The notes below the pieces were generated by a model. The model saw only the letters and a list, made by a program, of their open reading frames with translations, was not told the DNA's origin and ran no database searches. 21,339 bases of DNA from a virus: positions 1 to 21,339 of IMG/VR virus record IMGVR_UViG_3300036846_000664. One strand, given 5' to 3'. Of the stretch, positions 13,582-18,612 are shown piece by piece; the stretch's first letter is position 1, and the number at the start of each line of letters is the position of its first letter. Made by a program: the position numbers and the translations under genes.

Positions 13582-13719
13582 ATGAGCGACACAACCGACC
13601 AGCCAGTACCCACGCCCGAAGAGCAGCCCGAGCGCCGGCTCCCGGACCCGACGCCAGAGCCCGAGACCGAGCCCGTCGAGGACTGGGCCCGAGAGGGTCG
13701 TCGTGACGCTCCGGCGTGA
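13582..13719 (+). CDS. Small Pro/Glu-rich protein
   Basis: A 45-residue protein starts at an ATG with AAAGGAG eight bases upstream, which selects it over an in-frame ATG at 13537 with no such site. It is almost entirely Pro, Glu, Asp, Thr and Arg (TPEEQPERRLPDPTPEPETE), so it is probably disordered. It lies between the tip protein and the endolysin and overlaps the endolysin start by 17 bases. It has no membrane segment and so is not a holin. Function unknown. Confidence 0.6.
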   Translation: MSDTTDQPVPTPEEQPERRLPDPTPEPETEPVEDWAREGRRDAPA

Positions 13720-14491
13720 CTGGATCGGCTCACCCAACTACTCCTCGAGGGCGAGTGGCGTGAGGCTGGTGGTCCTCCACACCGCCGAGGGTGCGCTGAC
13801 CTACCAGTCGCTCGGCAACTACTTCGCCTCGTCGAGCTCGGGCGTGAGCTCGCACGTCGGCATCGATGACACGCCCGGGGTCATCGGTGAGTACGTGCGC
13901 CGGGACCTCAAGGCCTGGACTCAGGGCAACGCCAACCCGTACTCGGTGGCGGCCGAGCTCTGCGCCTTCGCGGCCTGGACGGGGGAATGGGCCCAGCACC
14001 CGACCATGCTCGAGAACACGGCGGCGTGGGTCGCTGAGGAGTGCGCCGCCTTCAACATCCCGATCCGGCGCCTCTCGGCGGCCGAGGCTCAGGGCGGGGC
14101 GGCCGGGGTCTGCCAGCACGTCGACCTCGGGGCGGCCGGGGGCGGGCACTGGGACTGCGGGCCGGGCTTCCCCATGGAGCAGGTGATCGACATGGCGGCC
14201 GGCGGCGCAGCGCCGAGCTCGCCCGATGAAAGTGAGGCACGCAACATGGTCCTACTCGACGAGCGCAGCGGCGGCTACTGGGTCGCCTTCAGCGACGGGG
14301 CGGTGCACGCCTATGACGGGGCGCCGTTCCTCGGCGGCACCAATAACGACCGCTACAACGCCGGGCACAAACCCTGTGTCGGCATCGCGGGGCGCCTCGA
14401 GGCCGACGGCGGGTATTGCCTCGTGGTCGATTTCGGCAACCGAGACTGCCGGCGCTATGAGTTCCCTTACGACGGCTCGGCGCGGGTTTAG
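13703..14491 (+). CDS. Endolysin: N-acetylmuramoyl-L-alanine amidase with C-terminal wall domain
   Basis: This 262-residue lysin would cut the amide bond between muramic acid and the stem peptide. The Amidase_2/PGRP domain covers about residues 15-165. Likely zinc ligands are His26 (VVLHTAEG), His139 (VCQHVDL) and Cys152 (WDCGPGFP). After a short Ser/Pro linker, residues 183-262 form a second domain: GGYWVAFSDGAVHAYDGAPFLGG and ADGGYCLVVDFGNRDCRRYEF. This resembles one or two 'YWLVASDGGVFSFGDAPF' blades seen in repeats of actinobacterial, notably acidimicrobial, surface proteins, and so is probably wall-binding. GTG 13703 has GAGAGGG five bases upstream. There is no signal peptide, so export would need a holin. 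Confidence 0.88.
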   Translation: MTLRRDWIGSPNYSSRASGVRLVVLHTAEGALTYQSLGNYFASSSSGVSSHVGIDDTPGVIGEYVRRDLKAWTQGNANPYSVAAELCAFAAWTGEWAQHPTMLENTAAWVAEECAAFNIPIRRLSAAEAQGGAAGVCQHVDLGAAGGGHWDCGPGFPMEQVIDMAAGGAAPSSPDESEARNMVLLDERSGGYWVAFSDGAVHAYDGAPFLGGTNNDRYNAGHKPCVGIAGRLEADGGYCLVVDFGNRDCRRYEFPYDGSARV

Positions 14492-14593: not shown

Positions 14594-14621
14594 AAATGTG
14601 GTTTCGCGCACGCACACATTT
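14594..14621. terminator. Possible weak terminator hairpin
   Basis: AAATGTG (14594-14600) pairs with CACATTT (14615-14621) around 14 bases and is followed by only two or three further T/G bases. It lies about 100 bases after the endolysin stop and before the attP arms, a reasonable place to end late transcription. The short T-run makes a Rho-independent terminator doubtful. Confidence 0.3.
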
Positions 14622-14622
14622 T

Positions 14623-14860
14623 GGAGCCAACGAGGGCGCCAAACGTGGAGCCATCTATGGAGCCAACCGGGGCGCCTCACAGGGGTTCCGGGGGGTTCCA
14701 AGGGAGCCAGAATGAGCGCTCAGACCCTGGTGGATGGAGCCCTCAGCACTTTGCCAAGGTGAGGGTCGCGGGTTCGAATCCCGTCTTCCGCTCCAGGTCA
14801 GAGGGCATAAATCGCTTGGAGCTTGGAGCCATGGAGCCAAGGTGGGAGGCCATGGAGCCA
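14623..14860 (+). repeat. Array of GGAGCCA direct repeats (candidate integrase arm sites)
   Basis: Seven exact GGAGCCA copies, all in the same orientation, start at 14623, 14647, 14659, 14703, 14825, 14833 and 14854. Variants GGAGCCC (14736) and GGAGCTT (14818) lie between. Four exact copies are left of the tRNA core and three right of it. Most are preceded by T, giving a TGGAGCCA consensus. Clustered short repeats on both sides of a core, next to a tyrosine integrase gene, are how arm-type sites look in L5- and lambda-type attP. Confidence 0.7.
14751..14795 (+). other. attP core: 3' part of tRNA-Gly(GCC)
   Basis: The segment begins in an anticodon loop TTGCCAA (anticodon GCC), continues through the variable region and a T-arm (GCGGG-TTCGAAT-CCCGT) and ends with CTTCCGC, T73 and CCA. 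The U73 discriminator and GCC anticodon fit bacterial glycine tRNA. There is no D-arm or 5' acceptor strand upstream: the bases before the loop are only partly able to pair. It is therefore not a gene but the phage copy of a tRNA 3' end, which would rebuild the host tRNA on integration. Confidence 0.88.
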
Positions 14861-14910
14861 AGATCGCCTGTACTATGGCCGTTCTAGCGATGCTCTAGGG
14901 AGGTCGGATT

Positions 14911-17957: not shown

Positions 17958-17985
17958 GCCCACCCGCCCTCGACGAGAGGAGGCC

Positions 17986-18450
17986 ATGCGCCCCCGTACC
18001 GCCGTTTTGCTTTGTCTCACCGTTCTCCTGACTGGAGTTCCGCTGTGGATCACCTTGACAACGAATCCGAGTCCACCCTCACTGAGGACCAGCTTCGCCG
18101 GAACCTCGAGGCCCTTAGCCGAATTGTTGCCGACCTCGTGGACGACGTCGACGACGCTGTCGTCACCCTCGCCTGTCTCGACGCCAAGCTTGCCGCCCTC
18201 GCCGCCGGTGACTACGCCGAGCTATGACCACCGCTGGGACGCCGTGGCGACGTGTGAAGAGGGAGGCTGGGTCGGAGCAGCCGGAGCCCGTTATCCGGAT
18301 TCTCTGGGCATCTCAGCGGCCAACTGGAGCGCATATGGGGGAGGAGACGACCTCTCACCCGCCGCTCAGGTTGCTGTGGCCGAACGCATTGAGGCAGCTG
18401 GAGGTCTGGCGGGCTTCGTTCCCGACCAGCACGGCTGCGCCGCCTGGTGA
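17986..18450 (+). CDS. Secreted Rpf-like muralytic protein
   Basis: A 154-residue protein with GAGAGG/AGGAGG before its ATG. Residues 1-25 (RPRTAVLLCLTVLLTGVPLW) are a signal peptide or membrane anchor. Residues 27-79 are a Ser/Thr/Pro linker. Residues 80-154 resemble the resuscitation-promoting factor/transglycosylase fold: YDHRWDAVATCEEGGWVG with the probable catalytic Glu91, LGISAANWSAYGG, SPAAQVAVAERI and a final Cys151 that can pair with Cys90. Rpf enzymes cleave peptidoglycan and can wake dormant actinobacteria. It lies in the early/lysogenic region, far from the endolysin, so it may act on the host wall during infection or lysogeny. Its linker is dual coding. Confidence 0.8.
   Translation: MRPRTAVLLCLTVLLTGVPLWITLTTNPSPPSLRTSFAGTSRPLAELLPTSWTTSTTLSSPSPVSTPSLPPSPPVTTPSYDHRWDAVATCEEGGWVGAAGARYPDSLGISAANWSAYGGGDDLSPAAQVAVAERIEAAGGLAGFVPDQHGCAAW
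18045..18227 (+). CDS. Nested gene in linker of Rpf-like gene, acidic helical protein
   Basis: A 60-residue frame lies entirely within 17986-18450 in another frame. GTG 18045 has TGGAG seven bases upstream. The product, DHLDNESESTLTEDQLRRNL then EALSRIVADLVDDVDDAVVT and LACLDAKLAALAAGDYAEL, is a coherent acidic amphipathic helix pair, not the Arg/Pro-rich text of a shadow frame. By hand count 46 of 60 third positions are G or C. It ends exactly where the Rpf-like domain begins. Both frames look selected. It may regulate the Rpf-like protein or be an independent DNA-metabolism helper. Function unknown. Confidence 0.6.
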   Translation: MDHLDNESESTLTEDQLRRNLEALSRIVADLVDDVDDAVVTLACLDAKLAALAAGDYAEL

Positions 18451-18453
18451 GCC

Positions 18454-18612
18454 ATGAGGTGCCCGGTGTGCCACACCGATCTCGAACCGGTGCTGGTGGT
18501 CCATGACGCCGCCGGGGCGCCCACCCTCGAAGCATGGAGCCGCGAAGCGTGGAGCGAAGCCGAAGGGGCCGCCCTGCTCCGTGAAGCCGAGCATCGGGAG
18601 AACCTCGAGTGA
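18454..18612 (+). CDS. 52-residue protein with CPxC zinc knuckle
   Basis: The ATG lies three bases after the previous stop. The protein begins MRCPVCHTDLEP, a CPxC-type knuckle with a nearby His, and ends in a charged helix (AWSREAWSEAEGAALLREAE) with an internal near-repeat of EAWSRE/EAWSEA. It overlaps the next gene in ATGA fashion. Small zinc-knuckle proteins of this kind are common early phage genes. No function can be assigned. Confidence 0.6.
   Translation: MRCPVCHTDLEPVLVVHDAAGAPTLEAWSREAWSEAEGAALLREAEHRENLE

Follow-up and report, generated by a model that had tools for sequence, protein, structure and literature searches.

A probable small gene nested out of frame in the linker of a phage Rpf-like gene

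Can the disordered linker of a secreted phage protein be the out-of-frame reading of another gene? The question is raised by a locus in a 21.3-kb virus contig (IMG/VR record IMGVR_UViG_3300036846_000664), analysed over all of its 21,339 nucleotides and referred to here as the window. A second reading frame with its own start codon lies inside a gene for an Rpf-like protein (Table 1). An earlier note on this DNA had described it as a gene for an acidic, helical peptide that is nested wholly within the Ser/Thr/Pro linker-coding part, stops exactly at the Rpf-like domain and recalls the lysis pair Rz/Rz1.

Table 1. Features of the Rpf-like locus, in positions of the window.
Feature	Position	Strand	Basis
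AGGAGG, strong Shine-Dalgarno-like motif of the Rpf-like gene	17978..17983	+	sequence
Rpf-like gene, 154 aa: signal peptide, S/T/P/A linker and transglycosylase-like (Rpf) domain	17986..18450	+	
Signal-peptide coding part (MRPRTAVLLCLTVLLTGVPLW)	17986..18048	+	hydrophobic N-terminus; seen also in relatives with nested genes
GGAG, ribosome-site-like, 7 nt 5' of the nested GTG	18034..18037	+	sequence
Rpf linker, which is the overlap; 68% S/T/P/A, disordered-type composition, out of frame with the nested gene	18043..18222	+	
Probable nested gene, GTG...TGA, 60 aa; predicted acidic single-helix coiled-coil protein	18045..18227	+	
Rpf-like transglycosylase domain, YDHRWDAVA..CEEGGW..	18223..18447	+	Pfam PF06737; PDB profile match RpfE/RpfC

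The outer protein was matched by PF06737 at residues 81-142 with 27.0 bits, right at the Pfam gathering threshold of 27, and by a PHROG transglycosylase family at 3.5e-9. A PDB profile search returned the M. tuberculosis RpfE, RpfC and RpfB structures (RpfE, 1.1e-5) with the glutamate aligned; this putative catalytic residue is Glu 91 of the Rpf-like protein (18256-18258) and lies in a C-E-x-G-G motif. The W..VA.CE.GG core is conserved, as it is in the actinobacterial RpfB, RpfC and RpfE proteins and in the Rpf motifs of phage tape measures (PMC1796659), but unlike those systems the protein is here small, predicted to be secreted and encoded in a phage early region. Signal peptides in the window and its relatives were called by eye from the sequence. 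As part of the explanation favoured below, the product is probably a secreted peptidoglycan hydrolase. The locus is set between early DNA genes, adjoining a replication-initiation O-like gene, and the amidase endolysin is encoded away from it at 13703-14491. Short GGAGCC/ATGGAGCC repeats at 14598-14887, between the endolysin and an integrase gene, are perhaps part of an attachment site. A third frame (ATGACC..) at 18224-18457, starting within the stop of the nested frame, continues without a stop over the Rpf domain both in the window and in the inspected relatives, which looks like an effect of the conserved domain codons.

The first codon position of the nested frame corresponds to the third position of the Rpf frame, and its third position to the second. 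Its ribosome site and start sit inside the 3' end of the signal-peptide coding part, with the GTG at Rpf codons L20/W21. The frame thus lies inside the Rpf-like gene and has its own ribosome site, as the earlier note had it, but it is not confined to the Ser/Thr/Pro linker part, since it starts where the signal peptide ends. The TGA does fall at the domain, but this is weaker evidence than it appears because the Tyr-Asp codons (TAT GAC) with which the domain opens partly dictate the stop. Across the overlap, third-position G+C was 0.77 for the nested and 0.80 for the Rpf frame, in agreement with the value of about three quarters given previously for both.

The description of the nested product as acidic and helical also held. 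The protein has a pI of 4.05, a mass of 6.5 kDa, 25% D/E and 7% K/R, and AF2 predicted a single helix at residues 14-53 with high confidence. The heptad core was entirely hydrophobic over five heptads both in the window and in the related loci L004, L005 and L009 (p =.007-.036), and on these models we expect the protein to dimerise as a cytoplasmic coiled coil; it was found to have neither a signal peptide nor a lipobox or membrane segment. Beyond these loci, searches of Pfam, PHROGs and the GenBank phages gave no convincing homologues, and a match to Baculo_PEP_C (E =.0023, under its cut-off) was rejected as coiled-coil noise. We infer that the protein may function early in infection as a regulator or adaptor built on a dimeric coiled coil.

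Scans of viral and genome collections recovered more than 60 Rpf-like loci; the loci are metagenomic contigs. None of them was among the GenBank phages, one (L030) was in an Acidimicrobiaceae MAG, and a search of 395 genomes of the host class brought up no other copy of such a phage in a chromosome. An inner open reading frame of 49-139 aa was in the same register in 16 of the 16 Rpf-like loci that carried one (window included; 14 clearly distinct). In 14 of these the inner frame begins where the signal peptide ends, its start codon falling in a codon for Trp or Cys (nTGG, nTGC); L026, which begins just 5' of the Rpf start, and L043 are the exceptions. The triplets GGA, AGG or GGG preceded 13 of 14 nested starts versus 26% of background NTG codons, and most of the 16 frames ended no more than about 5 nt from the domain. 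Stop codons interrupting the nested frame of relatives had been named beforehand as the observation that would count against a gene; the close family (L002, L003, L004, L005, L009 and the partial L006) has none.

At least three groups of inner proteins could be distinguished that are alike within but not between groups: the window with L002, L003, L004, L005 and L009 (and L006 in part), L007 with L021 and L032, and L024 with L039, the rest being singletons. Phages without an inner gene were also present (L010, L036 and L037). The proteins of the L007/L021/L032 group begin with VTITL..LAD.I...LRET.A.LI.EAR, which by its sequence looks like a candidate ribbon-helix-helix N-terminus; they had no Pfam match, NikR was their top PDB match at a weak E of.065, and the AF2 model was too poor for use (pLDDT 45). 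Cys/His clusters were seen in several of the other inner proteins, and a role as small early regulators could be the shared theme.

Inner-gene candidates in the other register (frame +1) were seen in L034 at 2867-2995 (MGKQRWRCRIGWHRW..VCRLC) and in L023 at about 2806-2956 (MAHCRHKH..ACQDCGREL), both zinc-finger-like, and given these two the register rule may not be absolute. In two further loci, coding-like +2 frames (L088, 2787-2972, MMNEFEFELDAAF..; L091, 2691-2972, MKTKDAFNEF..) seem to begin 5' of the Rpf-like gene and to cover both the signal peptide and the linker. At about 4500-4620 in L008 the Rpf-like frame is without the usual start codon, and a frame break near VTRQPDP.. splits a plausible start from the signal peptide; this break is either a sequencing error or a real frameshift.

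The length of the open frame was dropped as evidence of coding because, with the Rpf amino acids fixed, the nested frame stayed open in 63% of synonymous permutations. Constraint on the two frames was examined with a reciprocal test, in which the residues encoded by one frame were fixed, the codons were permuted and the similarity in the other frame was scored against the resulting null. With the Rpf residues fixed, the similarity of the inner proteins exceeded the null (p =.002 for L024-L039, L007-L021 and window-L004, and.004 for window-L009). With the inner residues fixed, the similarity of the linkers was not above the null for most pairs. Under a stricter null, in which shared codons were retained at the rate given by the synonymous divergence of the non-overlapping domain, the inner p-values were.001 for L024-L039,.003 for window-L009,.009 for window-L004,.014 for L004-L009 and.11 for L007-L021, whereas the linkers yielded p-values of.34 to.99. 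Inner similarity was not significant in this test for any pair in the L007/L021/L032 group (L007-L021, L007-L032 and L021-L032). Because the members of each group are related, tests within a group are not independent; with one pair per group, the combined inner p-value under the stricter null was 4e-5. A null calculated without realignment was biased to the inner frame, and the p-values were instead taken from the other two tests. For identical residues in L024 and L039, the fraction encoded by the same codon was.26 in the domain versus.71 in the overlap.

The overlaps of the window and L002 differ at 1 of 180 positions and the domains at 15 of 228, while the upstream DNA is only about 2% diverged. 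The low divergence of the overlap in the window, L002 and L003 was set aside as proof of double constraint because the upstream DNA is also nearly identical, and for window-L002 the near-identity may be a regional effect.

Codon usage pointed to the same frame. In the window the inner frame scored.37 bits per codon and the linker in the Rpf frame -.19, for which the references are.47+-.23 in ordinary genes and -.87+-.20 in the +2 reading of ordinary genes. The inner frame scored higher than the linker in all 16 loci, and the difference between the two was distinct from that in 12 loci in which no gene was recognised in this register (p = 8e-5). Of nine phages with no inner gene recognised in the register, three (L031, L033 and L034) scored higher in the +2 than in the Rpf frame. 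The pattern was reversed in the three host chromosomal Rpf linkers examined, where the Rpf frame was favoured and no coding-like inner frame was found. Upstream of the host rpf genes in L047, L049 and L050, overlapping open reading frames share peptide strings, for example YEGRC..DPHCTR, suggesting that these genes are preceded by a conserved DNA element, possibly a riboswitch.

Judged by these comparisons of sequences, the inner frame is under protein-level selection, and the nested frame is very probably a real gene with its own start; it stands beyond chance because of protein-level conservation, recurring start sites and codon usage across relatives.

Why such genes should reside in a linker is suggested by the register. 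Between 53 and 74% of the codons in the inner genes have C at the third position, and since the third base of an inner codon is the second base of a linker codon, C-ending codons become NCN codons for Ser, Pro, Thr and Ala. When the ordinary genes of the window were read in this register, 56+-10% of the residues were S/T/P/A and only 7% were strongly hydrophobic (LIVMF), whereas the other register gave 26% S/T/P/A and 36% R/H/Q/K. The S/T/P/A content of the linkers is 59-79%. The Ser/Thr/Pro character conferred by C-ending codons explains the one-sided choice of register. The earlier emphasis can accordingly be reversed, in that the Ser/Thr/Pro linker appears to be largely a by-product of the small gene, with some further selection on linker composition being possible.

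We propose that at this locus two early phage genes overlap and share one mRNA, that the inner one is constrained and that the linker would largely be its out-of-frame reading, and we assign this explanation a probability of about 0.78. The outer gene would encode a secreted Rpf-like peptidoglycan hydrolase with a signal peptide, a disordered S/T/P/A linker and a catalytic domain. The inner gene would initiate at its own ribosome site within the end of the signal-peptide region, be read through the entire linker and end at the catalytic domain, yielding a 60-aa acidic coiled-coil protein that would be retained in the cytoplasm. A G+C-rich gene in this register would produce a hydrophilic, non-membrane linker, so that the slot could accommodate a gene with hardly any penalty for the outer enzyme. 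The Rpf-like enzyme would remodel the wall of infected or neighbouring cells, and the small protein would act inside the cell early in infection. The enzyme may keep hosts from dormancy or open the wall; host rpf genes are induced in Rhodococcus infection, where a dormancy-preventing role has been suggested (PMC10986025). That the linker slot takes different genes would be owing to the composition imposed by the register. More tentatively, and with the odds slightly against it, the phage Rpf linker can be viewed as an exchangeable gene-hosting slot into which unrelated small genes have been swapped, nearly always in one register, with the tether of the enzyme kept.

The alternative that survives best concerns origin and is compatible with a real inner gene, namely classical overprinting, in which an ancestral Rpf linker gave birth de novo to the inner protein. 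The Rpf signal peptide and domain are common to all loci and predate any single inner gene, phages without inner genes exist, and the searches turned up no outside homologues of the inner proteins. However, in codon usage the overlap agrees with the inner frame, and the criterion of Pavesi et al. takes such a fit as the mark of the ancestral frame of an overlap (PMC3744397), so that the inner frame would be the older reading of the overlap itself. Moreover, one slot holds several unrelated genes, and the N-terminus in the L007/L021/L032 group resembles a ribbon-helix-helix rather than novel sequence. Birth in place is thus unlikely, although it is the most serious competitor; capture or exchange of small genes is preferred by about 2 to 1, and no free-standing homologue of the inner proteins was found.

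It is improbable that the frame is spurious, with the acidic peptide a mere shadow of an S/T/P linker that seldom yields stops here in G+C-rich DNA. The permutation result agrees with such a shadow, as does the host chromosomal locus L049, where a non-coding-like frame is open through the linker in the same register. A shadow does not account for inner similarity above the null with fixed Rpf residues when the converse is not true, nor for the codon usage in 16 of 16 loci or the Shine-Dalgarno-like motifs at recurring starts.

Still less credence is given to the inner genes being selfish DNA with the rpf gene as its homing target, in the manner of the ShiLan element in an actinophage DNA methylase (PMC11855218). 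There, as here, a whole gene lies out of frame in a stop-free insertion, with a GTG near the 5' edge and a stop at the 3' edge, and differing genes at one place would suit mobility. The inner gene of the ShiLan element is, however, a homing HNH endonuclease within a folded enzyme (PMC11855218), unlike the varied small non-nuclease proteins found here in a secretory linker, where composition supplies an explanation; none of 11 inner proteins scanned matched an endonuclease in Pfam or PHROGs, and an insertion-free, near-identical allele was not seen.

A lysis pair comparable to Rz/Rz1, with both products acting jointly on the envelope, would fit the nested architecture and an outer wall hydrolase but is very improbable, as the inner product is predicted to be one soluble acidic helix with no N-terminal signal, the slot in other phages holds unrelated proteins without secretion or membrane signals, the locus lies outside the lysis cassette and two-component spanins target the Gram-negative outer membrane (PMC6139136).

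The likeness to Rz/Rz1 that had been drawn from the sequence is thus one of architecture only, in that a phage gene lies entirely within another in a different frame; the embedded spanins are envelope proteins that act as partners in Gram-negative lysis, and they show no significant preference for either register (PMC6139136), whereas the two products here do not look related and one register is strongly dominant. Closest in kind are the HNH genes inserted out of frame in actinophage methylases and the spacer/PreS1 overlap of the hepatitis B virus polymerase, where the disordered tether of an enzyme is likewise overprinted on a better-constrained gene (PMC9093120). The latter is a single fixed pair in an animal virus, in contrast to a bacteriophage slot with exchangeable inner genes. 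What is new is that unrelated genes recur in a single slot, together with the register rule.

These loci offer a natural case, in multiple lineages, of one DNA stretch serving two proteins, and they reverse the usual reading, in that a hidden gene can have a disordered linker as its by-product. Such genes would escape gene callers that allow no overlaps, and a bias of this kind has been reported for spanins (PMC6139136). The register and the C-ending codons provide a testable rule for finding hidden genes in the linkers of secreted proteins of G+C-rich phages. If the rule is general, many low-complexity linkers of such proteins would hide unannotated genes in a predictable register.
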